Both the position numbers and the translations under genes were made by a program. Positions 32,629 to 45,914 of a DNA stretch of 45,914 nt are shown here, piece after piece. The notes under the pieces were generated by a model. It was not told the origin of the DNA. It did no database searches and saw only the letters and a program-made list of their open reading frames with translations. This DNA comes from Alkalicoccus sp. (GTDB taxonomy: Bacteria; Bacillota; Bacilli; Bacillales; Salisediminibacteriaceae), in NCBI GenBank assembly GCA_007692495.1, contig REBZ01000084.1:1-45914 (forward strand), in the 5' to 3' direction. Within the stretch, counting starts at the first letter, position 1. Each line of letters begins with the position of its first letter.

Positions 32629-33255
32629 ATGCACCTTAATCAGAAAGAAGGCTGGGTAGAAGTCGTCTGCGGAAGCATGTTTTCCGGAAAGTCGGAAGAA
32701 CTTATCCGCCGCGTCCGCCGGGCCAGCTTCGGCCGTCAGAAAATCCAGGTTTTTAAACCCCAGCTTGATAACCGTTACAGTGAAAAAGAAGTGGTCTCTC
32801 ATAACGGAACGACAGTGTACGCCTATCCTGCGACGGATGCAGAGGACATTTACACTCTGCTCGAAAAAGATACGGAAGTCGTCGCAATTGATGAGATTCA
32901 ATTTTTTGATCCAAAGATTGTGGATGTCGTCCAGACACTCGCAGACGATAAAGTCCGGGTGATCTGCGCCGGTCTGGACCAGGATTTCCGCGGGGAGCCG
33001 TTCGGCTGTGTTCCTGTGCTGTTAACACTCGCAGAGTCCGTAACAAAGCTGCAGGCTATCTGTCTTTCCTGCGGGGCTCCTGCAAGCCGTACGCAGCGTC
33101 TGATCGACGGAAAGCCGGCTTCCTACGATGATCCGATCATTCTCGTCGGAGCTTCAGAGTCGTACGAACCCCGCTGCAGGCACTGCCACGAAGTACCCGG
33201 CCGCCCAAGAACCACCCACGTCCCGGCCGTCAACCTCGCCCGGGAAAACAACTGA
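32629..33255 (+). CDS. tdk: Thymidine kinase
   Basis: ATP-dependent salvage of thymidine to dTMP. 208 residues, type II (bacterial) kinase: P-loop [11 protein letters not shown] (~residues 16-26), catalytic region AIDEIQFFD (~88), and a four-cysteine zinc lasso (CLSC near 146 and CRHC near 184). ATG 32629 follows a weak AGGAGCG site. Followed by a strong terminator that ends the conserved gene block. Confidence 0.96.
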
Positions 33256-33267
33256 TCCGTACCGAAG

Positions 33268-33302
33268 AAAAAACCTGTCAGGTCATCTGACAGGTTTTTT
33301 CT
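33268..33302 (+). terminator. Terminator of tdk (symmetric)
   Basis: A 14-bp perfect stem (33268-33281 with 33287-33300) with A and T tracts, active in principle on both strands. Confidence 0.9.
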
Positions 33303-33380
33303 GTGAAGCTGCATTTTATTGTACAGGCTGTCTTGAAAATAAAATATAGATAAAAGGAGCGCTTTCGTTTCCATGGGGAG

Positions 33381-33475
33381 GCTTTCCGGGCGGGCCGGCC
33401 TCAGCTAATTCCGTCCTCTTTTGTCGGTCGGAATGGATCTTCGGCTCGGCCTTTATCGCCCCGGAGTCCCCCCAT
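33381..33475 (+). repeat. Dispersed ~95-bp repeat, copy 2
   Basis: Same orientation as copy 1 at 25061; 26 identical bases at 33381-33406, then GGATCTTCG, ATCGCC and CGGAGTC at matching distances. Located in the non-coding gap 33303-33851. Confidence 0.8.
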
Positions 33476-33670
33476 GTCTCCTGCAGCTGCAAAGAATATT
33501 TATTCTTCAAGAGGTACAGTGTATCTGTCTCCTTCGGCACCGACAAATCATCCACTCATCCTGATTCTCGCAGAGTTACTGTATACAGTTTCAACAGGCT
33601 GTTCCGGTTTTTCATCCGGCTGCTATCAAGCGGTCTGCTGATTGGAAATTCAAGTTCCTTTCTGAAGCGG

Positions 33671-33776
33671 AAGGCGGGGACTCCGACGGGATTAAGCGAA
33701 GTCGGAAGATCCTTTCTGAAGAAGCTCAGCTTCGGCAGAAATAGCTGAAGACGAGCCCCGCGGAAAGCCTCCGCCG
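33671..33776 (-). repeat. Dispersed ~100-bp repeat, copy 3 (inverted)
   Basis: The plus strand here reads like the minus strand of copies 1 and 2: GGGGACTCCGACGGGAT, then AGATCC, AGCTGA and finally CCCCGCGGAAAGCCTCCGCC. Copies 2 and 3 thus face each other about 195 bp apart. Such GGGACTCC...GCGGAAAGCnTCCGCC elements are common in Bacillaceae intergenic DNA. Confidence 0.65.
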
Positions 33777-33851
33777 GCAAGCGTAAGAAAGCCGGTACGA
33801 ATAAACGGTCATGAGGTATTCCGGATAACTTGTCCGCAGGCAGGCCGCCGT

Positions 33852-35180
33852 CTACAAACTGCGTGAATGACGCTGAACCGGATCCCACGTGGAATTGTAG
33901 GGAGGGGCGTAGCTGATATCAAGGTCCTGTATTTCATCAACAGTCATGCGGTTAAACAGCATGACAGAAGAGGTATCGATCCGCTTGTCCACACCGTGGA
34001 CCCCGGCCGCCTGCACGCCGAGCAGCCGGTCATTTTTATTATCCTTCAAAAGCTGGAGCGTCATCGGCTCCACTCCCGGATAGTAGCCGGCAAAAGCAAG
34101 CGGTTCAAACGTTTTGCAGCTGAAGTCGAAGCCGAGACTTTTCGCTTCTTTAATGCCGATTCCAGTCCGTCCGGCAGTAATATCAAAAAACTTCAGAATG
34201 GCGGTGCCGAGCATGCCCTGAAATGTTTTTTTGTCCCCCGCAATATTGGCTCCGGCGATACGCCCCTGCTTGTTGGCATGGGTCCCGAGCGGCACGTAGT
34301 CGTCCTGCTCCTTAATCCGGTGGTACTGCGTGGCGCAGTCTCCGGCAGCATAAATATTCGGGACGTTCGTACGCATGTAGGGATCGACAATAACCGCTCC
34401 GGAAGCGTGGGTGTAGATACCGGTGTCCTCCAGAAAATCCGTATTCGGCCGGATACCGATGGCGACGAGCACCCCGTCTGTTTCATAGGAGTATTTTTTT
34501 GTTTCCACGCTTGTTACCCGCCCGTGCTGATCTCCGGTGAAGCCTGCCACGTCCTCATTCAAACAGAGTTCAACGCCGTGCTTTTCCGCTTCTTTACGAA
34601 GAACATCGCTGACCGGTTCGTCGAAGTTGCTGCCGAGTTTGTCATTACGGTTAATGATACGTACTTTTTTACCGATTTCCACGAGGTTCTCGGCGACTTC
34701 CAGACCGATATATCCCGCTCCGATAATTGTAATATGCTCCTTGTCCTTGAAGTCTTCAATAATATTTTCTGTATCAGGAATCGTCTTCATCGTATGGATA
34801 CCTTCGAGGTCCGCACCGTCCACCGGAATTACGTTTGGACTTCCACCGCTGGCCACGAGAAGCGTGTCATATTCCAAAGAAAATGATTCTCCTGAATCCA
34901 GGTTTTTACCGCTCACGATCTGGTTTTCGGCATCGACGTTCGTTACTTCATGAGAAACCCTCGCATCGATACCTTTTTTACGAAAATAGGAAACAGGCCG
35001 TGCGATCAGGTCATCGCTCTTCTCTACGAGCCCTCCCATATAATACGGCAGACCGCACTGGGCATAGGAATAAACCGGACCGCGCTCCAGTACAGTAATT
35101 TCTGCATTTTCCGCTTTATGCACGATCTGCATCGCGGCACTCATGCCGGCTGCATCTCCTCCAATAATTACAACTTTCAT
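33852..35180 (-). CDS. CoA-disulfide reductase-type FAD/NAD(P)-dependent oxidoreductase
   Basis: 442 residues from ATG 35180 (AAGGGAG upstream; an in-frame extension to 35243 lacks support). FAD-binding GGDAAGMSAA, the single redox cysteine C42 in YAQCGLPYY, a second NAD(P) loop GAGYIGLEVAENL, and the C-terminal YAPPYNSTWDPV stretch match CoA-disulfide reductases, which recycle CoA disulfide with NAD(P)H and replace glutathione redox systems in Bacilli and staphylococci. NADH oxidase or persulfide reductase of the same family are alternatives. Stand-alone gene in the accessory block. Confidence 0.85.
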   Translation of the reverse strand: MKVVIIGGDAAGMSAAMQIVHKAENAEITVLERGPVYSYAQCGLPYYMGGLVEKSDDLIARPVSYFRKKGIDARVSHEVTNVDAENQIVSGKNLDSGESFSLEYDTLLVASGGSPNVIPVDGADLEGIHTMKTIPDTENIIEDFKDKEHITIIGAGYIGLEVAENLVEIGKKVRIINRNDKLGSNFDEPVSDVLRKEAEKHGVELCLNEDVAGFTGDQHGRVTSVETKKYSYETDGVLVAIGIRPNTDFLEDTGIYTHASGAVIVDPYMRTNVPNIYAAGDCATQYHRIKEQDDYVPLGTHANKQGRIAGANIAGDKKTFQGMLGTAILKFFDITAGRTGIGIKEAKSLGFDFSCKTFEPLAFAGYYPGVEPMTLQLLKDNKNDRLLGVQAAGVHGVDKRIDTSSVMLFNRMTVDEIQDLDISYAPPYNSTWDPVQRHSRSL

Positions 35181-35243
35181 CCTGTATCGGCTCCCTTCTG
35201 TATCTACGTTTCTAATACCCCCACCCCTTCCGGAAGTAAACAT

Positions 35244-35915
35244 ATCATCCGGCCTGGTTAAATAAAAGTTGCTGAAACCTGTCTACTCAGGAAATACTGT
35301 GGGATAAAGTTAGGGAAGGAGTTAATTCACGGATGGGTTACTGATGAACAAGAAAATATTGCCTCCCGTCCTGTACCGGCCCATTATAAAAAAGCCCTGA
35401 AATAAACAGGACTTCTGAGTATAGAAAATTTCTAAAGAAAAAAATCTCATCCGATGCAGTATAGGATACAATATATGCTGGGCATCAGCCTGCTATTATT
35501 TAGACTCCGAGTGCGGAGCTGACACCCTTTCCTTCAAATTAGCTCTTAGGTAATAATCTGAGAAAATTATTTGCAGTCAGTTTCTTATGTATAAGAGGGT
35601 AATGGCAACTACAATGAATTCGTGCATCACATATTTATGAACATAACCAGCAACTTGTGTATATTATCTGCCTTAATAAGATCATCGATACAATCCATGA
35701 AACGAAAAGGTCGTGAAATCGGGAGCTGCCGTTCTGGAATTACGTCGACAATAAACCAGGAAAATGAAGAAGCCAGGCATCAAAGCTGATTCAAACTACA
35801 GTAACAATAGACGTTGTTTGATTTGCTGCCCTTGTATTTAACAGTCTGTATTAGTTGGCAAAGTGATTTATTTAATCACTTGAAAATATTAATGATGAGC
35901 AGATACAGGCGTTAA
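35244..35915. other. AT-rich non-coding gap, nothing recognised
   Basis: No coding-like frame longer than about 30 codons on either strand. AAGTGATT-TATTT-AATCACTT (35864-35881) could be the weak hairpin ending the phn operon. Otherwise I see no recognisable element; it may be decayed accessory DNA. Confidence 0.5.
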
Positions 35916-36707
35916 TTAAATAATTTTTTTTCTGATTGACGAAGATAACTGTTCAAATAAAATGACGACAACAAGAATTAAAACGATGATCATCAAAGCT
36001 TCGTCGAAATTTCTCATAGTAAACGCTGTAGAAAGCTCCACTCCGATTCCCCCCGCTCCGACAAGGCCGAGAACAACTGCCGAGCGGATTGACTTTTCAA
36101 AAGCAAACAAGCTCGTGCCTACAAATGACGGAAATCCAAGCGGCAGCACTGCCCCTGAAACAATACCGATCTGGGAAGCTCCGGTAGATTGAAGGGCCTG
36201 AGATGGTCCTTTTTCAATTTCTTCGATTCTTTCAGAAAAGAAACGTGCGCAGAACCCTATCGTGTCCACAATAATCGTCAGTATCCCCGCCAAAGGACCG
36301 AGCCCGACAGAAATAACAAATATTAATGCCCAGATTAAATCCGGAATCGTACGCATAGCTGAAACCGCCCCGCGGCTGATCCAGCGTATTGAAGGATGAG
36401 GTGCGGTATTGTGTGAAGCCAGAAGAGCTACCGGCAGACTGAGAACGACGCCTATGACGGTACCGACTAGTGCAATTTGAAAGGTTTCGTACATCGCTGA
36501 AGATATAGAAGTTATTCTTTCAGGATTGGGAGGAAAGGCCGAACCGATGAAATGTAACATATTAATGATGCCATTTATTATTCTTTCAAAGGAAAGCTGG
36601 GCATGCTGAATCCCCATAATAAATAGAAAGGTGAAAATAACGAGCAGAAAAATTGCAGGAAGTTTAGGGAGTTTGAACCGCGGCGGCATAGACGTATGCT
36701 GGTTCAT
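35916..36707 (-). CDS. phnE: Phosphonate/phosphite ABC transporter permease
   Basis: 263 residues, about six membrane segments. The cytoplasmic EAA loop that contacts the ATPase is at EKGPSQALQSTGASQIG (~residues 172-188). It forms the channel for the importer with PhnC and PhnD. Its ATG overlaps the phnC stop by four bases. Only one permease gene is present, so a homodimer is expected. Confidence 0.92.
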   Translation of the reverse strand: MNQHTSMPPRFKLPKLPAIFLLVIFTFLFIMGIQHAQLSFERIINGIINMLHFIGSAFPPNPERITSISSAMYETFQIALVGTVIGVVLSLPVALLASHNTAPHPSIRWISRGAVSAMRTIPDLIWALIFVISVGLGPLAGILTIIVDTIGFCARFFSERIEEIEKGPSQALQSTGASQIGIVSGAVLPLGFPSFVGTSLFAFEKSIRSAVVLGLVGAGGIGVELSTAFTMRNFDEALMIIVLILVVVILFEQLSSSIRKKII

Positions 36708-37471
36708 GAATGCTTCATCCGCAGTTCGTCATGGTAGTAAAGGTTGGACAAGTCCTTTTTGGAAATAGTTTTTTTGCTTCCGTCCAGTACTACTTCGCCT
36801 TTGTTCAATCCGATTAACCGTTCCCCAAATTCCATAGCAATATCCGTTTGATGAAGGATACAAAGAACCGTCCAGGATTTTTCCTCTACGATTTCCCATA
36901 AAAGCTCCATTACTTCCCTTCCCGCTTTTGGATCAAGACTTGCGATTGGTTCATCTGCCAGAATAATTTCTGGATCCTGCATCAGCATTCTTGCAATGGC
37001 CACACGCTGCTGCTGGCCTCCAGAAAGCTGATCAGCCCTTCTGCCTGCAAGATGGGCAAGTCCGACCCTCTCCAGGCAGGACATAGCCCGTTCTCTGTTT
37101 TCAGCAGAAGCAAAAGGCGTCGTTACACTTAGAAAATTACGATGGTACCCCATTCTTCCAAACAAAACATTCTGGAAAACGGATAAATTGTAGATTAAGT
37201 GAAAGTTCTGAAATACCATGCCGAGCTTTTTTCGAATAGGTTTAAATTTACTTTTTCCCAATTGTGTAATTTCTTTATTGTTTATAAATATACTTCCATC
37301 GCTCGGTTTTTCGAATCCGGCTATATTTTTAAACATTGTCGATTTCCCGGAACCGTTGTGTCCGAGCAGCACCACACCCTCCCCGCGCTTAATCTCGAAA
37401 GAAACGCTGTTCAAAGCTTTTGTGCCGTCCGGAAAGATTTTTGTTACATTGTTTACTTCAAGCGCGTTCAT
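36704..37471 (-). CDS. phnC: Phosphonate/phosphite ABC transporter ATP-binding protein
   Basis: 255 residues. Walker [10 protein letters not shown] (~38-46), signature [13 protein letters not shown] (~150), Walker B IILADEP and the switch histidine in CILHQTD are intact. PhnC-type ATPases power import of phosphonates, phosphite or related anions. GGGGGGAAG precedes ATG 37471; it follows phnD by 21 bases. Confidence 0.93.
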
Positions 37472-37492
37472 GATTTCTTCCCCCCGGATAAA

Positions 37493-38458
37493 TTAATCTA
37501 TATCAAGTCCCAGTACTTCATAAGCTTCACGCATTTGATCGTAATCACTATCAGCCGCTTCGACAAATTCAGCTTCCATGTACTTGTCATTTTCACCCGT
37601 TTCCAGAATACTGGCTATAAGTTCTTCCTGAGCGTCCATCATGGCTTCTTTCATTTCATCTACAAATTCTTCAGGCAGTTCCGGGCTTGCTATGAATACA
37701 TCATTCGGAAGCGTAGGTCCCTCATGGAGGAGGCGGTACTGATCTTCACCATCTTCTTCCACCATTTCATGGTAGTCTTTTATCCCTGTCGCCAGAACGT
37801 CTACTTCATTATTCTTAAAAGCTTCAATTCTTACACTGTCAAGCAGCTGTATATCAAAATCATTGTCCAGATCGTATCCTTCTTCGATTAAGATCGAGCT
37901 CGGGCCGACATGCCCACTTGTGGATCCTGCATCTTTCATTGCTATAGAAGTTCCGACTATATCGTCAAGGGTTTCATATTCGCTGTCTTCATGAACGATA
38001 AAAGCTGCGTGATATTCATCTCTTTCTACTCCGACAAAAGGATAAGCTTCCGGGACAACACTATTAATCTGCACATATTCAGAAGGTCCTGCAAGCATCA
38101 CGTCAACTTGATCGTATTCCAGCGCAGTTGCTCCAACAATTCTATCGGTCACGGCAAAAAACTCGACCTCGATATCAAGTGCCTCTTCCATTGCGTTCTG
38201 AAAAGGTTCAAATTCTCTCTGCAGCTCTTCCATACCTTCGACGCCTGTATCGGCAAAACGGATTTTATCCGGCCTCTCTGACTCGTCACCAGTGTTATTA
38301 CTGGTTTCTGTTGGATCGGCGTTAGCTTCTTCAGAGGACACTGAATTGCTGCTTGCTTCTACTTCATTTTCTCCTGCTTCATTTTCATTCTCCCCACCAC
38401 AAGCGGCCAGCATCGCAAAAGATACGGTAATTCCTGTTAATAAAGATATTTTTTTCAT
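37493..38458 (-). CDS. phnD: Phosphonate/phosphite-binding lipoprotein
   Basis: 321 residues: a lipoprotein signal with lipobox LAACGG (cysteine ~20), a very acidic low-complexity linker of E, N and S (~21-65), then a PhnD-type periplasmic-binding fold (KIRFADTGVEGMEELQREFEPFQ...; ATALEYDQVDVMLAGPSEYV; SIAMKDAGSTSGHVGPSS). The serine/threonine-rich SGHVGPS loop is where relatives bind the anion. The high acid content suits a salty medium. GGGGGAGGAAAAAG precedes ATG 38458. First gene of phnD-phnC-phnE. The exact ligand is unknown. Confidence 0.92.
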   Translation of the reverse strand: MKKISLLTGITVSFAMLAACGGENENEAGENEVEASSNSVSSEEANADPTETSNNTGDESERPDKIRFADTGVEGMEELQREFEPFQNAMEEALDIEVEFFAVTDRIVGATALEYDQVDVMLAGPSEYVQINSVVPEAYPFVGVERDEYHAAFIVHEDSEYETLDDIVGTSIAMKDAGSTSGHVGPSSILIEEGYDLDNDFDIQLLDSVRIEAFKNNEVDVLATGIKDYHEMVEEDGEDQYRLLHEGPTLPNDVFIASPELPEEFVDEMKEAMMDAQEELIASILETGENDKYMEAEFVEAADSDYDQMREAYEVLGLDID

Positions 38459-38551
38459 TACTTTTTCCTCCCCCTTATTCTTAATTCTTCTCCAACTCTA
38501 CAGAGAATTTATTAAGGCAGTAGTAAAAGCACGTAAAGGTTAGATGAAAAT

Positions 38552-38589
38552 TGTTAATGAAAACAATGGTGGTGTTAATTTATTATTAA
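38552..38589 (-). promoter_or_regulatory. Possible PhoP box upstream of phnD
   Basis: On the minus strand TTAATA, 5 bp, TTAACA, 15 bp, TTAACA: three of the four TT[ACT]A[CT]A repeats of a Bacillus PhoP box near the expected ~11-bp phase. It lies ~95 bp before the start codon. Confidence 0.4.
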
Positions 38590-38806
38590 TGTTTTTTTGA
38601 ATTTTTTCTGACAATTGTACTAAGCAAGAAGCCTCTTAGATTTTCTTATACAGTGGCTGAGGCTTGTTTATTGTTAAATATTGCTGCGTTCAGATGTGAT
38701 AAATAGCCATTGTTAATAAGCTTTGCTAACTGTTTTCGGCATCTGCACATTTCAAAAACGGATACTACATTCAGAAAACTCCCGATGCAGGTGAGTTTTC
38801 TATAAA
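38590..38806. other. Short non-coding gap, one unexplained hairpin
   Basis: GAAAACTC and GAGTTTTC (38775-38800) form a perfect 8-bp hairpin just before the kynA terminator. A 60-codon minus-strand frame (38646-38828) runs through but has no recognisable family. Confidence 0.4.
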
Positions 38807-38847
38807 TAAAAGCCCCTGCCATAAACAAAATATGGCAGGGGCTTTTA
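38807..38847 (-). terminator. Terminator of the kyn operon (symmetric)
   Basis: A perfect 17-bp inverted repeat (38807-38823 with 38831-38847) with A and T tracts, ending kynA on the minus strand. Confidence 0.9.
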
Positions 38848-38909
38848 TTATTTGCCGGGTATTGGCCCGGTTTCTATGTGATCAATGAGAAAACTATTCA
38901 GTTGACGGT

Positions 38910-39746
38910 TTACAGTTCAGTCCGCAGATTCCAGAGCTCCGGGAAGAAACGGTGGTCGAGTACTTTTTTCAAATAGTTTACACCGGACGAACCGCCGGTG
39001 CCTTTTTTAAAACCGATGATCCGCTCTACCGTCTTCATATGCCGGAAACGCCACTGCTGGAAGGAATCCTCGATATCTACAAGCTTTTCTGCGAGCTGAT
39101 ACAGCTCCCAGTAGCGGTCGACGTCCTGATAAACAGTCATCCATGCTTTTTTTACGGCTTCGTTTTCTTCATACAGCACGGAAAAGTCCCGGTCAGCAAC
39201 GTCCGCCGGAATATCAAAGCCGGCTTTTCGGAGCGCCTGGATGGCTGCGTCATACAGGCCAGGGGCATGGTACGCTTTTTCCAGCTGCGCGTGCAGTTCC
39301 GGGTCTTTTTCATAAATTTTCAGTATGTGACTGGTTTTGTAACCGAGCGCAAATTCAATCTTACGGTACTGATAGGACTGGAATCCGGAAGCCTGGCCGA
39401 GCGCATCGCGGAATTCTATGTATTCCGCCGGGGTGAGTGTCGAAAGCACGTCCCACCCTTGAATAATCTGTTCCTGAATTCTCGTCACGCGTGCCAGCTT
39501 TTTGAACGAGGCCGGGAGGTCATCCGCCTGAATGGCCGCAATGGCGGCATCTGTTTCATGTATAACGAGCTTCATCCACAGCTCGCTGACCTGATGGATA
39601 ATAATAAACAGCATTTCGTCATGATGGCCGGACAGCCGCTCCTGGCTGGAAAGCAGCTTATCAAGGTGCAGGTATTCGCCGTATGTCATGTCGTTTTTAA
39701 AGTCGGTATGAATCCCTTTTTCGGAAGACGGGCTGGAATATTTCAT
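38910..39746 (-). CDS. kynA: Tryptophan 2,3-dioxygenase
   Basis: Heme enzyme opening the tryptophan indole ring to N-formylkynurenine. 278 residues, mainly helical. Family landmarks: [15 protein letters not shown], the [18 protein letters not shown] helix, and [18 protein letters not shown] with the substrate-binding arginine. AAAGGAG precedes ATG 39746, two bases from the kynB stop. Last gene of kynU-kynB-kynA although it acts first. Confidence 0.96.
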
Positions 39747-39748
39747 AA

Positions 39749-40408
39749 TCAGTCTCCTTTCTCGTTTTGAAGCGGCCGGACGACAGCCCGCACCGGACTG
39801 CCGTCTGCTCCCTGAAGCGGAAGGGGGAGGGCAATCAGCTCATAGTCGCCTTCCGGAAGATCGTCGAGCATCAGATTTTCCAGGACGGCAGTTCCGGCCT
39901 CGAATAAAGTGTGATGAGCCCGGACTTCGCGGCTGTCGAGCGGATCGATCGAAGGGACGTCGACGCCAAGCAGTCGGAGGCCGGACTCTGCTAAAAATAA
40001 AGCGCCGTCCTCCGTCAGCGCCGGAACAGCCTCCGGGAAGCGCTCCGGCCGGTTCGGGACGGACGTTTTAAGAAGGAGGCGTGCCGTACCGTCCAGTTCC
40101 ATCGTCCGGAACAGCTTGTCGTCCAGAACAGCAGCGGAGGAAACGTCCACGATGCGCGCCGTGCCGAGAAAAGCATGCAGATCCAGATCCAGTATGTCTG
40201 CGCCGTCGTTATTTACGTGAAAAGGCGCATCGGCGTGCGTTCCGGAATGAAGACTTGTCGTGATACGGCCGATGTTGACGGATCCGGTTTCCTCTTTCGT
40301 CATAGCGGTCTCGTAGGAGAACGGTGTGTCGCCGGGCCAGTGGGCAGTTCCTTCGTGCAGCGGCTGGGAAATATCGATCCACGGCCGGCTTTCATCACGG
40401 ACATTCAC
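39749..40408 (-). CDS. kynB: Kynurenine formamidase
   Basis: Hydrolyses N-formylkynurenine to kynurenine and formate. 219 residues of the bacterial cyclase-like metal-dependent family, with [16 protein letters not shown] near the N terminus and the metal motif [11 protein letters not shown] (~54-64). GTG 40408 overlaps the kynU stop in GTGA, with GGGGGG upstream inside kynU. Its short form matches B. anthracis-type KynB. Confidence 0.94.
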
Positions 40409-41682
40409 GCGACAACCCCCCGTTCATTTTTAAACTTTTTGTACGTTTCCTTCTCCATAATTTCCTTCAGCGTCTGCACGCACTCCCATACTTCGGTAAA
40501 CGTATTGTATAAAGCGACGGGTGCGAGGCGGATCCCTTTCGGTGAACGGAAATCAGGAACAATTCCGGCTTCTTTTAAGGCACGGCAGATGCGGGCAGCC
40601 TCCGGATGTTCCACGTAAATGTGCCCGCCCCGGCGCTCATCCTCCAGCGGATTCCGGATTTGAAACCCATGGGGGTGAAGCTCCTGATCAACAAGTTCCA
40701 TCAGGAATCGTGTAAGCTGAAGCGATTTAAGACGGATATTTTCAATGCCTGCTTCTTCAAAAATAGGAAGCGAGCCGAGAAGCGGAGCCGTACTCAGTAC
40801 GTGCGGCGTTCCGATCTGAAAGGCGCCGGCGTCCTCTGCCGGTGTGAGGGTGTGCTTCATATCAAACTGACGGTCTTTACGGGAACTGAACCAGCCGGCA
40901 AGCCCCGGTTCTGTCCCGAAATGTTTTTCGTTGACGTAAAGAGCCCCGACGCCTCCCGGACCGCTGTTTAAATGTTTATACGTACACCAGAAAGCAAAAT
41001 CGACACCCCAGTCGCTCAGTTCGTGGGGCAGAGAACCGATTGAATGAGAGAGGTCGAAACCGATCACGATACCGCGCTTATGAGCTTCTTTTGTCAGAAG
41101 TTTCATATCGAGCAGCTGGCAGCTGCGGTACAGAACACTCGGCAGGACGATAAGCGCCGTCTCCTCCGTCATCGCTTCGATAATTTTTTCTTCATCAATT
41201 GTATGGCCGTCGCTGCTTTCCACCTGGACGAGATGTTCTTCCGGATCCAGTCCTTTTAAACGGATCTGGCTTTTCAACGCATAAATGTCACTTGGAAAGG
41301 TGAGGGAATCTGCAAGGATTTTCGTTTTCCTGCCGGAAGGGTTATAAAATGTGCCCGCAAGCTGGTGGAGATTAACAGTGGTGGAGCCTGTAACGATGAC
41401 TTCCTCCGGGCGGGCTCCAAGAAGCGGAGCCATCCTGGTCCCGAGCTTTTCGGACAAGTAAAACCACGGATGCTCCCCGCCTGTCCATCCGCCGATGCCT
41501 TCCTGCTTCCACATGGCGAGCAGATCCAGCGCTGCCTGCTCTGAACGTTTTGACAGAAGCCCGAGGGAATTGCCGTCAAAATAAATGCTGTTTTCCTGCA
41601 CGTAAAATTCACTGCGGAAGGAGGCAAGAGGATCCTCCTGGTCAAGTTTCTGCGCGTACTCTCTGGAATGTGTGATCGTCAT
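40405..41682 (-). CDS. kynU: Kynureninase
   Basis: PLP enzyme splitting kynurenine to anthranilate and alanine. 425 residues, fold type I aminotransferase. The PLP lysine is in [18 protein letters not shown] (~residue 233), with FDGNSLGLL at the N terminus and [10 protein letters not shown] holding the ring-contact aspartate. No kynurenine monooxygenase is encoded, so the operon ends at anthranilate. Start ATG 41682 with GCAGGTGA. Confidence 0.96.
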
Positions 41683-41714
41683 TCACCTGCTTTCCTAAAA
41701 GTCTATTCAGCTGC

Positions 41715-41759
41715 ATTGTATACTTATGGTGACGAATAGTCAATGACATCGTGTCAATG
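41715..41759 (-). promoter_or_regulatory. kyn promoter and overlapping palindromic operator
   Basis: On the minus strand TTGACT (41738-41743), 17 bp, TACAAT (41715-41720). The palindrome TGACA-tcg-TGTCA (41744-41756), extended by CA/TG outside one mismatch, abuts the -35. It lies in the 230-bp gap shared with the divergent TetR gene, which is the likely binder (inference). Confidence 0.65.
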
Positions 41760-41796
41760 TCAGAAAAATCCGTATTGCAGGAGCTGAAATTACGTG

Positions 41797-41870
41797 TAGA
41801 ATAGGAAATAGATAAATCAAGGCTCTGTAAAGCTCCGTGTTGATAGAAGAGTGCCAGCGGCTCTTTTTTC
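41797..41870 (+). promoter_or_regulatory. Promoter and leader hairpin of the TetR gene
   Basis: TTGCAG (41775-41780), 16 bp, TAGAAT (41797-41802). In the leader an AGAG-GCC/GGC-TCT hairpin with a bulge followed by six T (about 41849-41870) looks like a leader terminator before the coding region. Confidence 0.45.
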
Positions 41871-41912
41871 TTCACCTGCCGCAAAGCAGAATCGAAAAAA
41901 AGAGGTGGACGT

Positions 41913-42548
41913 ATGGAGGAAAGGCACGGACTGACAGCGAGGGAAAGAAAGGCACTGAAAACAAAAAATAAACTGCTGGAGGCAGGAAAAAAAGTACTTC
42001 TCGAGCAGGGGTTTCAAAAAGCAACCGTCACGCAGATTATCCGGGAAGCCGGTACCGGTTACGGCACAGCCTACGTATATTTTAAAAACAAAGACGAACT
42101 GCTTATCGTTCTGATGGAGGACGTCATGGCGAAGTTTTATGCCGTTGCCGGAAGGACGTTTGCACCGGAAACTTCCGGGGAAGCCTACGAGCTGATTGAG
42201 GATCAAGTAAGAAGCTTTCTTTCACTGGCTGTGGAGGAGAGGGATATCCTCCGTGTCGTAAAGGAAGCATCAGGCGTCTCGGAAGCCGTGGCCTCCTACT
42301 GGGAGGACGTCCGCAGCCGTTTTATCGGTAGTATCGCTGCGGACATACGGCGCGTACAGGAAAAAGGGCTCGCCGGGAAACACTTCGATCCCGAATTTAC
42401 GGCGAGAGCCTGGTACTATGCCAACGAAATGTTTCTCTGGGACGGCGTAAGGGACGGAAGCAGTTTTCCTTCACAGAAGGTGATTCAGACACTGACGGAC
42501 CTTTACACAGGTGGCCTGTACAAAGATCAGGAAGGTCCCTCCCATTGA
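41913..42548 (+). CDS. TetR-family regulator, probably of the kyn operon
   Basis: 211 residues: helix-turn-helix at ~20-65 (TVTQIIREAGTGYGTAYVYFKNKDELL) and a helical ligand domain. It is divergent from kynU with a palindromic operator between, the classic layout for a local repressor. Candidate inducers are tryptophan or kynurenine; neither is shown by the sequence. AAAGAGGTGG precedes ATG 41913. A wider fatty-acid-type regulator is the alternative. Confidence 0.85.
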   Translation: MEERHGLTARERKALKTKNKLLEAGKKVLLEQGFQKATVTQIIREAGTGYGTAYVYFKNKDELLIVLMEDVMAKFYAVAGRTFAPETSGEAYELIEDQVRSFLSLAVEERDILRVVKEASGVSEAVASYWEDVRSRFIGSIAADIRRVQEKGLAGKHFDPEFTARAWYYANEMFLWDGVRDGSSFPSQKVIQTLTDLYTGGLYKDQEGPSH

Positions 42549-42573
42549 TTTTAACGGTTTTTACGCCTATACT
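42545..42573 (+). promoter_or_regulatory. Sigma-A promoter of prfA-prmC
   Basis: TTGATT (42545-42550), 17 bp, TATACT (42568-42573); the -35 overlaps the stop codon of the TetR gene. Confidence 0.75.
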
Positions 42574-42621
42574 GGGAAGAGGTATGAAAGTTGTACGAAT
42601 TTTAAGGTGAGGTGAAGTTAG

Positions 42622-43689
42622 GTGTTTGATCGCCTGCAGGCAGTAGAGGACCGCTATAACCAGCTGACAGAGCTGCTTATGGATCCCGACGTAATTAACG
42701 ACAATAAGAAGCTCCGCGAATATTCAAAGGAGCAGTCCGATATTCAGGAAACAGTAGAAACGTATAAACAGTACAAGGACGTAACGACCCAGTATAATGA
42801 AGCGAAAGAAATGCTTCACGACAATCTGGACGAGGACATGCGTGAAATGGTGAAAATGGAAGTCGACGAGCTCGGCGACCAGATTCCGGAACTCGAGGAA
42901 AAGCTGCACGTGCTGCTGATGCCGAAAGATCCGAACGACGATAAAAACGTCATCATCGAAGTGCGTGGAGCAGCCGGCGGGGACGAAGCAGCGCTTTTCG
43001 CCGGCGATCTATACCGCATGTACTCCCGGTACGCGGAAAAGCAGAACTGGAAGATCGAAGTGATCGAAGCGAACGAAACAGGACTCGGCGGCTTTAAAGA
43101 AGTCATTTTCATGATCAACGGTAAAGGCGCGTTTTCCCGGATGAAATATGAAAACGGAGCACACCGCGTACAGCGGGTTCCGTCGACCGAATCCGGCGGA
43201 CGGATCCATACGTCCACGGCAACGGTTGCTGTACTTCCGGAAGCAGAGGAAGTGGAAGTCGACATCCACGACAAGGATATCCGTGTAGATACCTTTACTT
43301 CAAGCGGCCCGGGCGGCCAGAGTGTTAACACGACGATGTCCGCCGTCCGTCTGACGCACGTACCGACAGGCGTCGTCGTTTCCTGTCAGGACGAAAAATC
43401 CCAGATTAAAAACAAAGAAAAAGCAATGAAAGTGCTGCGTGCACGTATTTATGACAAGTTTCAAAAAGAAGCCCAGGCGGAGTACGACGAACACCGGAAG
43501 TCCGCTGTCGGCTCCGGTGACCGCTCCGAGCGGATCCGCACGTATAATTTCCCGCAGAGCCGTGTCACGGACCACCGCATCGGCCTGACGATCCAGAAGC
43601 TCGACCAGATCCTTGAAGGAAATCTGGATGAAATTATCGATCCGCTGATTGTCGAAGAACAGTCCCGACTGATGGAAAACGCGGAGTAG
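42622..43689 (+). CDS. prfA: Peptide chain release factor 1
   Basis: Recognises UAA and UAG and triggers peptide release. 355 residues. The stop-codon reader PxT is present as PST in [12 protein letters not shown], and the catalytic GGQ is in [11 protein letters not shown] (~231-233). The start is GTG 42622, with AAGGTGAGGTGA upstream. prmC follows after 9 bases and encodes the enzyme that methylates the GGQ glutamine. Confidence 0.97.
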
Positions 43690-43698
43690 GAGGAAACA

Positions 43699-44544
43699 AT
43701 GTCTGTTCCACACGTTCATGAAGCCCTGAAATGGGCTTCTTCTTTTTTGGAAAGCTGGCACCGGGAAAAAGAAATAGGCTATATTCTTCTGGAGTTTCAT
43801 ACCGGATGGAGCCGGTCCCGGCTGCTGGCGGAAATGCAGTCACCGCTTCCCGATATAACAGCCGCCCGCTTCAAGGAAGATGTAATGAAAGCGGCAGCCG
43901 GCACCCCGGTTCAGCATATTACCGGACTGGAAACCTTTTACGGACGGAAATTCCGGGTCAACCCGGACGTGCTGATCCCCCGTCCGGAAACGGAGGAGCT
44001 CATTGAAGCAGTCCTCAAGAACGTTCCGGCCGGACCTCTTCGGGTCGCGGATATAGGGACCGGCAGTGGAATCATCGCCATCACTCTCGCGCTGGAACTG
44101 CCGGCAGCGGACGTCACTGCCGTGGATATTTCCACCCAGGCACTGGAAACAGCCCGCGTAAACGCTTATGCCCACGGCGCAGAAGTTCAGTTTCAGGAAG
44201 GGGATTTATGCGGACCGCTGCTCCAGGCGGAAGCCCCCTTTAATATCATCGTTTCCAATCCGCCCTATGTGCCGAAAAGGGACAGGGGGAATATGGATAC
44301 GAACGTAAAAGATCACGAACCGGAAGGCGCCCTGTTTGCAGGGGAGGACGGGCTGGATATTTACCGCCGCCTCGCAGTGCAGCTGCCTGCCGTGCTGAAG
44401 AAACCCGGTTTGGCAGCATTCGAAATCGGCCACGGCCAGGGAGCTGCTGTCGGGGAGCTGATTAAAAAGGAACTTCCGGAAGCTTCCGTGGAGCTCCTGC
44501 TGGATATAAATGAAAAAGAGCGGATCATACTCGTCCACATATAA
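43699..44544 (+). CDS. prmC: Release factor glutamine methyltransferase
   Basis: Methylates the GGQ glutamine of RF1 and RF2 with S-adenosylmethionine. 281 residues: N-terminal helical substrate domain, SAM loop VADIGTGSGIIAI (~115-127) and the amino-methyltransferase motif NPPY (VSNPPYVPK, ~190). AGGAGGAAAC precedes ATG 43699. Operon with prfA as in most Bacilli. Confidence 0.96.
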   Translation: MSVPHVHEALKWASSFLESWHREKEIGYILLEFHTGWSRSRLLAEMQSPLPDITAARFKEDVMKAAAGTPVQHITGLETFYGRKFRVNPDVLIPRPETEELIEAVLKNVPAGPLRVADIGTGSGIIAITLALELPAADVTAVDISTQALETARVNAYAHGAEVQFQEGDLCGPLLQAEAPFNIIVSNPPYVPKRDRGNMDTNVKDHEPEGALFAGEDGLDIYRRLAVQLPAVLKKPGLAAFEIGHGQGAAVGELIKKELPEASVELLLDINEKERIILVHI

Positions 44545-44555
44545 ATGTTCCCCTT

Positions 44556-45545
44556 AGTGGATAACTTTTTCAGCCCTCCACAAAGTTATCAACAGAAACC
44601 GCATCACTTATCCACTGAATTTGTGGATAAGTGATATTTTTCTACCTTAGAATAAGAAAGGTATATACGAACAAAAAGAAAAAATATGCCGGGAGGTGAA
44701 TAAGTCATGACTTATCAACACACCATCCACTGGACTGTGGATAAAGATGTGAGTAACTTAAAAGAAAGTGTGGAAATCAAGGAAGCCGCACAGAAATTGG
44801 CCTCCGGGGAGCTGGTTGCTTTTCCGACGGAAACAGTCTACGGACTCGGCGCCAGCGCGCGTTCGAACGCTGCTGTGAAATCAATCTTCACGGCAAAAGG
44901 CCGTCCATCCGACAATCCGCTGATTGTCCACATCGCACGTGCGGAGGATGTGAATAACTATGTGGAAGAAGTGCCTGAAACCGCCTGGAAATTGATGAAT
45001 TCTTTCTGGCCGGGGCCTTTGACGATCATTCTGCGTCATAACGGTGTGTTATCCACAGGTGTAACAGCCGGTCTGCCGACTGTTGCGCTCCGCATGCCGG
45101 ATCATCCGGTCGCTCTGGCGCTCATTGAAGCGAGCGGTGAGCCTGTCGCTGCCCCGAGCGCAAACCGTTCCGGCCGTCCAAGTCCAACGACTGCCGGACA
45201 CGTCCGGGAAGACCTCGATGGAAGAATTGCTGGAATCGTAGACGGAGGAGCAACCGGTGTCGGTCTCGAATCCACCGTTGTGGACTGCACGCAGCATCCT
45301 GTGATGATTCTGCGTCCAGGCGGGGTAACAAAAAGCCAGCTGGAAGCGATTGTCGGGCCGGTGGATGTCGATCCTTCCCTGCAGCAGGATACGGCTGAAG
45401 AGGCCCCTCGGTCCCCCGGAATGAAATATAAACATTATGCACCGGAAGCTCCGCTGACATTAATTGACGGAGACGAAGCATTTTTCCACATGTGCATAAC
45501 TGAAGCGAAAGAAAAAGGGTCCCGCATCGGTGTAATTGTGGATAA
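44556..45545. other. DnaA-box cluster around ywlC
   Basis: Six perfect TTATNCACA boxes: minus strand at 44622-44630, 44736-44744, 44949-44957, 45491-45499 and 45537-45545; plus strand at 45049-45057. One-mismatch boxes lie at 44556, 44586, 44608, 44712, 44748 and 45482. The ywlC region is one of the known DnaA-binding clusters outside oriC in B. subtilis. Four of the perfect boxes lie well inside the coding sequence. Confidence 0.8.
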
Positions 45546-45762
45546 AAAAGAAGCCGCGGACGTGGAAGCCCACAAAATATATCTCCTTGAAAACAGCGAC
45601 GGAGAAACAGTCGCCCGGGAGCTTTACGCCGCCCTCCGTTATTTCAGAAAAGAGGACGTCGACCATATCTTCATGCGTGTCCAGCCCGCAGACGACATCG
45701 GCTTTGCCATCATGAACCGTCTGATCAAAGCTGCCGGAGGACGCATCCTCTCCCAATACTGA
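44707..45762 (+). CDS. ywlC: L-threonylcarbamoyladenylate synthase (Sua5/YwlC)
   Basis: Makes threonylcarbamoyl-AMP from threonine, bicarbonate and ATP for the t6A37 tRNA modification. 351 residues, the long Sua5 form: YrdC/TsaC domain (~20-210; FPTETVYGLGASA, KGRPSDNPLIVHI, APSANRSGRPSPT) and a C-terminal Sua5 domain (~230-351). The linker motif SPGMKYKHYAPEAP closes over the active site. GGGAGGTG precedes ATG 44707. The gene body and its leader carry the DnaA boxes. Confidence 0.96.
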   Translation: MTYQHTIHWTVDKDVSNLKESVEIKEAAQKLASGELVAFPTETVYGLGASARSNAAVKSIFTAKGRPSDNPLIVHIARAEDVNNYVEEVPETAWKLMNSFWPGPLTIILRHNGVLSTGVTAGLPTVALRMPDHPVALALIEASGEPVAAPSANRSGRPSPTTAGHVREDLDGRIAGIVDGGATGVGLESTVVDCTQHPVMILRPGGVTKSQLEAIVGPVDVDPSLQQDTAEEAPRSPGMKYKHYAPEAPLTLIDGDEAFFHMCITEAKEKGSRIGVIVDKKEAADVEAHKIYLLENSDGETVARELYAALRYFRKEDVDHIFMRVQPADDIGFAIMNRLIKAAGGRILSQY

Positions 45763-45789
45763 CCGCTGCGGACTCAGATCAATAGAACG

Positions 45790-45824
45790 GCATCCGCCTT
45801 CGTCTTAGAGGCGGATGCTTTTTT
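45790..45824 (+). terminator. Terminator of ywlC
   Basis: A perfect 9-bp stem (45790-45798 with 45810-45818) and six T. Confidence 0.9.
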
Positions 45825-45871
45825 ACTGCGCACAAAAACCCGGATAGTAAGGAATCCGAACGGGCATTTTT

Positions 45872-45902
45872 CTGACAGAAAACCTTTGAAATATGGTAAA
45901 CT
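45872..45902 (+). promoter_or_regulatory. Possible promoter for the next gene to the right
   Basis: An extended -10 TGGTAAACT ends at 45902, with a CTGACA/TGACAG -35 at 18-19 bp. The gene it would serve is outside the window. Confidence 0.35.
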
Positions 45903-45914
45903 AGAAGTAAGATT

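Follow-up and report, generated by a model that had tools for sequence, protein, structure and literature searches.

The kynurenine operon of Alkalicoccus sp. raises the question of which protein controls tryptophan breakdown in this bacterium, and in response to which signal. The operon, kynABU, lies in a contig of 45,914 nucleotides, analysed here as a whole and referred to as the window. It comprises kynU for kynureninase (40405..41682; TIGR01814, 404.7 bits, cut-off 246.4), kynB for arylformamidase, or kynurenine formamidase (39749..40408; TIGR03035, 277 bits, cut-off 223.05), and kynA for tryptophan 2,3-dioxygenase (38910..39746; TIGR03036, 431.9 bits, cut-off 390.7), all on the minus strand and all three above their NCBIfam equivalog cut-offs. 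The gene for a TetR-family regulator of 211 aa (tetR, 41913..42548, plus strand) is divergent from kynU-kynB-kynA, and a 230-bp spacer separates tetR from kynU. A first-pass annotation, made from the window alone, had described this spacer as a local tryptophan/kynurenine-responsive switch, with one palindromic operator overlapping a sigma-A promoter of kynU and a separate promoter for tetR. On the same strand, genes for a phosphonate-type ABC transporter (phnE, phnC, phnD) occupy 35916-38458, about 450 bp beyond kynA.

The assignment of the 41913 protein to the TetR family is supported by an N-terminal TetR_N helix-turn-helix domain (PF00440, 44.3 bits, cut-off 24). The C-terminal part is an EthR-like ligand domain (PF21313 EthR_C, 30.8 bits, cut-off 27), and a Pfam scan with E up to 0.001 found no domain beyond these two. 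The structure predicted from an alignment of 26 rows, window included, is all-helical, with nine helices and a C-terminal ligand domain (pLDDT 91.3), as expected of the family. Its best solved structural match is EthR of Mycobacterium tuberculosis (Z 19.8, rmsd 2.9, 187 residues aligned, 19% identity), which shares the PF21313 domain but differs in target genes and operator. The best NCBIfam match by E-value, the FadR equivalog of Bacillus (NF053878), a model named for fatty-acid metabolism, covers only residues 19-103 and reaches 51 bits against a cut-off of 200.

Two operator palindromes were recognized in the spacer. Palindrome 2, TGACATCGTGTCA (41744..41756), is the TGACA-tcg-TGTCA site of the first-pass annotation; it is present exactly as described and is the sole match to TGACANNNTGTCA in the window, where shuffles lead one to expect 0.01 (one of 100 shuffles had a match). 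Palindrome 1, TGACGAATAGTCA (41730..41742), is a second copy, and the operator thus proved to be a double site rather than a single palindrome. Both copies are 13 bp long, have the same outer letters and are separated by a one-base linker, which gives an offset of 14 bp. The predicted kynU promoter was found by the promoter scan on the minus strand at 41743-41715 (TTGACT-17-TACAAT, 10/12 consensus), with the -10 box TACAAT at 41715..41720 and the -35 box TTGACT at 41738..41743, the latter consisting of the right half-site of palindrome 1 and the linker base 41743. The overlap of operator and promoter therefore belongs to palindrome 1, which covers the -35 box; the 13-bp palindrome 2 merely abuts it, and only an imperfect extension of the latter (41741-41759, 7/9 pairs) reaches into the box.

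The probability of finding such elements by chance depends on how they are defined. Of 20,000 shuffles of the spacer by a first-order Markov model, six contained TGACANNNTGTCA and 51 contained TGACN5GTCA, which never occurred twice in one shuffle; an equally spaced repeat of any 4-bp inverted half-site was found in eight of 1000 spacer shuffles. A generic palindrome score on its own does not single the site out, a value as high being reached in 381 of 500 shuffles, and the match to the kynU promoter is by itself not rare (two promoter-like sites in 41000-43200 against a shuffle mean of 1.4). The significance of the operator rests on its conservation among related sequences and not on chance statistics within the spacer.

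The separate tetR promoter of the first-pass annotation remained unconfirmed. The scan of 41000-43200 listed no promoter directed towards tetR in the spacer, and the only candidate, a weak and uncertain TTGCAG-16-TAGAAT (41775..41802, plus strand), was read by eye. A scan of 79 related spacers, carried out with no shuffled control, placed the putative tetR promoter over the operator in 67 and beyond it in 12. Autoregulation of tetR may occur; it gains plausibility only from the Cytobacillus-type loci, where a predicted TTGATT-16-TATAAT promoter runs into palindrome 2. At about 41848-41869 the tetR leader contains a terminator-like hairpin and a run of T, which were considered as an attenuator and rejected; a similar hairpin is present in L032, but the close relative L031 has a different sequence there. 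No Rfam family scored above threshold in 33200-45914.

A scan of GTDB contigs with the TetR protein yielded 72 loci, 45 of which (L031-L075) are 40-95% identical to it over nearly its full length. The remaining 27 (L076-L102) had E-values of 5e-11 or weaker, mostly over short N-terminal stretches and once over 167 residues at 25%, and were dropped from the counts. In 39 of the 45 orthologous loci kynU is divergent from the TetR gene. Together with the window these make 40 kyn-linked loci, all of which contain counterparts of palindromes 1 and 2 as a double site with 0-3 mismatches over 16 letters. The eight columns of GTCAATGA are invariant in all 40 and the flanks vary, although the placement of rows by best match makes the matched columns lean towards the pattern. 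The linker base, which lies outside the matched pattern, is A in 40/40. Judged by this conservation, the palindrome pair is a deep phylogenetic footprint. L032 only appeared to be operator-less; its contig begins inside the operator. A gene for a sodium-dependent transporter stands beside the kyn genes in 29/45 loci, which would fit a regulon that includes substrate uptake.

The geometry of the operator was followed in a larger set of 91 TetR loci, joined from two collections in which species may repeat (window = L131; L127 and L130 omitted). Of these, 82 are kyn-linked, 69 with a palindrome pair and 13 more distant ones (42-46% identity) with a single palindrome. Across the 82 loci, 67 pairs have an offset of 14 bp (two of them within one triple array) and one of 28 bp, formed by the outer copies of the triple array; no further offset was seen up to 40 bp, and 20 shuffles of each locus produced three pairs in total. 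The half-site nearest kynU reads as a -35 box in the form TTGACA in 69 loci, TTGACT in nine, TTGACG in three and GCGACA in one, and a -10 box with at least 5/6 matches is present in 66/82 loci against 142/1640 shuffled controls. In the 12 spacers read, of 13 with a single site, the lone palindrome corresponds to the -35 copy. According to a quick tree of 58 thinned sequences, at least three changes between the single and the double operator are needed.

The strict pair was found in 30 of 397 genomes from the window's order (reversed-letter control, 1/397), located between the TetR gene and kynU in 29. The TetR profile matched 47 genomes at E 1e-30, and kynU scored above its cut-off in 241, including 45 of those 47; the other two carry distant TetR matches. 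In 44/47 genomes kynU adjoins the TetR gene, once (L143) in convergent orientation. The regulator nearly always accompanies kynU, whereas most kynU genes do without it. Within the window's own genus, kynU is present in all seven sampled genomes and the TetR gene in two of the seven; at 95% identity or more the regulator is found in 3/8 genomes. One genome (G135) has a second operator before an amino-acid permease gene. A second site in G271 and the sole site in G044 are not at kyn or tna genes and look like chance matches.

No relative of the TetR protein was detected on plasmids at E 1e-30. In IMG/VR the exact pair occurs in three viral contigs (L178, L179, L180), among several TGACANNNTGTCA-type palindromes that possibly form a phage repressor or replication array. 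These contigs gave no match to the kyn or TetR proteins of the window or to TnaA at E 1e-3, and were treated as unrelated to the regulon. More distant members of the protein family were also seen. A TetR paralog (34% identity) in L141 (2361-3148) is divergent from a FAD_binding_2 oxidoreductase gene; the stretch between the two genes holds the 13-bp palindrome with one mismatch, and a related operator may serve another gene there. Another distant paralog (34%) in L152 (2230-4173) is divergent from a Glu/Leu/Phe/Val dehydrogenase gene and is perhaps an amino-acid catabolic switch. A shortened relative of 133 aa in L145 (3306-3707), from a genome lacking kynU, has no DNA-binding part and looks like a decaying copy.

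Five of the 45 orthologous loci are not cut off and still have no kynU: two from Chengkuizengella (L062, L063) and three from Caryophanon (L070, L074, L075). In C. marina the TetR gene follows a gene of the tryptophanase family, and the palindrome pair stands before that gene. In C. axinellae the genome's only strict pair precedes the same tryptophanase-type gene, about 12 kb from the TetR gene (taking contig C1 as the TetR contig). Neither genome encodes kynU or kynA above the cut-offs. A second scan of 296 genomes around C. marina (reversed-pattern control, 1/296) found the strict pair in nine, namely C. marina, C. axinellae, G411, G419 and five others. In G411 and G419, both with the TetR gene and neither with kynU above the cut-off, the pair precedes the gene of a lyase that shares about 93% identity with the C. 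marina enzyme. All four genomes of the C. marina group thus combine the regulator with a double or triple operator before a tryptophanase-type gene and have no kynU above the cut-off. Triple arrays with 14-bp steps are located before the lyase gene of G411 (L182, near 1501) and between tetR and kynU in G067 (L132, near 1501). The tryptophanase-type enzymes of the group are 81-93% identical, and the tryptophanase-linked operators, all in one group of relatives, may go back to a single event. In the five other genomes with the pattern (G422, G448, G524, G531, G562) the TetR protein is absent at E 1e-25; a weak TetR-like match (33% over 57 residues) lies close to the G422 site, and G531 carries kynU on another contig. 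Like those in G044 and the second site of G271, these matches away from kyn and tna genes are read as chance or as sites of other regulators.

The substrate of the Chengkuizengella lyase was considered from its sequence. The enzyme belongs to the subfamily NF009709 (731.7 bits, cut-off 285) and stays below the equivalog cut-offs for both tryptophanase (TIGR02617, 651.8 against 825.8 bits) and tyrosine phenol-lyase (TIGR02618, 648.6 against 720.7 bits); overall, its score places it slightly closer to tyrosine phenol-lyase. An Asp/Ile as opposed to a Thr/Arg pair sets the specificity of tryptophanase versus tyrosine phenol-lyase. The Chengkuizengella enzyme has Asp and Ile at the positions of Asp137 and Ile396 of E. 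coli TnaA; the corresponding residues of tyrosine phenol-lyase, located by manual counting along the alignment, are Thr124 and Arg381. The three Caryophanon loci encode a diverged TetR ortholog, and no strict pair was found in any of the three genomes. Beta-eliminating lyases present in two of these were rejected as a second tryptophanase case; they have the Thr/Arg pair of tyrosine phenol-lyase and no operator before them.

What the sequences show is the arrangement of the genes, the geometry of the operator and its overlap with the promoter, the conservation of these elements and the recurrence of the operator ahead of a tryptophanase-type gene, and on these grounds the 41913 protein is probably a TetR-family, EthR-fold repressor of tryptophan catabolism that is released by L-tryptophan. 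We infer that this protein is itself the binder and that two of its dimers would occupy the adjacent 13-bp palindromes at 41730-41756. Since palindrome 1 contributes one of its halves to the kynU -35 box, the bound repressor would keep RNA polymerase away from kynU-kynB-kynA; given this predicted blocking of the -35 box by the occupied palindromes, the protein is best read as a repressor rather than an activator. L-tryptophan, upon accumulation, would occupy the EthR-like C-terminal domain and make the repressor leave the DNA, and tryptophan would then be degraded to anthranilate and alanine. EthR occupies its long operator as several cooperating dimers, and QacR-like TetR repressors place two dimers on each operator. 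Two dimers per site would be a feature in common with the QacR-like repressors; the palindromes of the present operator, however, lie side by side with a one-base linker and do not overlap.

The choice of tryptophan as the putative inducer derives from Chengkuizengella, where the TetR gene and the operator are paired with a tryptophanase-type gene; L-tryptophan is the simplest signal common to the kynurenine-pathway and tryptophanase targets, as the sequences suggest. The proposal of a local switch made in the first-pass annotation is thus strongly supported as regards the TetR regulator and the operator over the kynU promoter, and the effector that it had left open between tryptophan and kynurenine is more probably tryptophan. 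Retention of the regulator where kyn genes are absent, which had been expected to speak against the switch, does occur in Chengkuizengella, alongside the tryptophanase-type gene, and refines the idea. Several observations count against the overall reading: the many kyn operons that have no such protein, the Caryophanon loci with an ortholog but neither kynU nor operator, the two genomes with distant TetR matches and no kynU, and the restriction of the tryptophanase-linked operators to one group, whose lyase falls below the tryptophanase cut-off.

With repressor and operator unchanged, kynurenine or N-formylkynurenine could be the inducer instead. L-kynurenine is the effector listed for KynR of Burkholderia xenovorans (PMC4349456), and the linkage of 39/45 orthologs to kyn genes agrees with such a signal. 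It should not be made in Chengkuizengella, where C. marina and C. axinellae lack kynU and kynA above the cut-offs and the two further genomes lack kynU; effector specificity could, however, have changed in that lineage. A kynurenine-type inducer is unlikely. Still less probable is that the protein is an activator, or a repressor responding to indole, anthranilate, tyrosine or some other aromatic signal. The Chengkuizengella lyase, near the tryptophanase and tyrosine phenol-lyase models and above neither equivalog cut-off, leaves some room for such a signal, but it carries the Asp/Ile pair of TnaA, indole is no intermediate of the kynurenine route, and a site covering the -35 box has the geometry of repression.

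The 12 kb between operator and TetR gene in C. axinellae could mean that another protein binds the palindromes and that the divergent TetR controls something else. This is very improbable, as the TetR gene adjoins the strict pair in 29 of 30 genomes, it is present in all four genomes whose tryptophanase-type gene is preceded by the operator, against none of the five unrelated-looking pattern genomes at E 1e-25, and no pair within 3 mismatches was found in 16 kynU stretches sampled from the 196 TetR-less genomes. That the conserved sequence is the kynU promoter only and no operator can hardly be maintained, even with an exact TTGACA -35 box in the half-site of 69/82 loci, since palindrome 2, upstream of the -35 box, is conserved too and both palindromes are symmetric at a fixed 14-bp offset.

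The tryptophan-released repressor proposed here may be compared with KynR of Pseudomonas and Burkholderia, which is likewise a local regulator of tryptophan catabolism through kynA, kynB and kynU. KynR differs in being an Lrp/AsnC-type protein with L-kynurenine as its listed effector (PMC4349456), whereas the Pfam domains of the TetR-family 41913 protein are, at E up to 0.001, TetR_N and EthR_C alone, with no Lrp/AsnC-type domain. The Lrp-type KynR of Gram-negative bacteria was the only kynurenine-pathway regulator met in the literature read; the best open-access matches included none for Bacillota and no TetR regulator of kyn genes in Bacilli, in agreement with the first-pass annotation. The distinctive traits of the 41913 regulator are its double-site geometry and the swap of target pathway.

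Taken more broadly, and with somewhat more reserve, the data favour an undescribed TetR repressor that senses tryptophan, is widespread among Bacillota and would control the destruction of tryptophan by whatever enzyme performs it: the kynurenine route in most genomes having it and tryptophanase in Chengkuizengella, together with genes for uptake. In its evolution the operator would pass between one, two and three copies of the 13-bp palindrome, the step staying at 14 bp and the -35 box remaining within a half-site. If this is true, many Bacillales would gain a regulator, an operator and a regulon for tryptophan breakdown, with free tryptophan as the predicted signal, and a small repressor acting at one promoter and releasable by tryptophan would also be useful as a sensor part. 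The placement of the same operator ahead of a tryptophanase-type gene where kynU is missing would then clearly exemplify a regulator that tracks the substrate and not the pathway.
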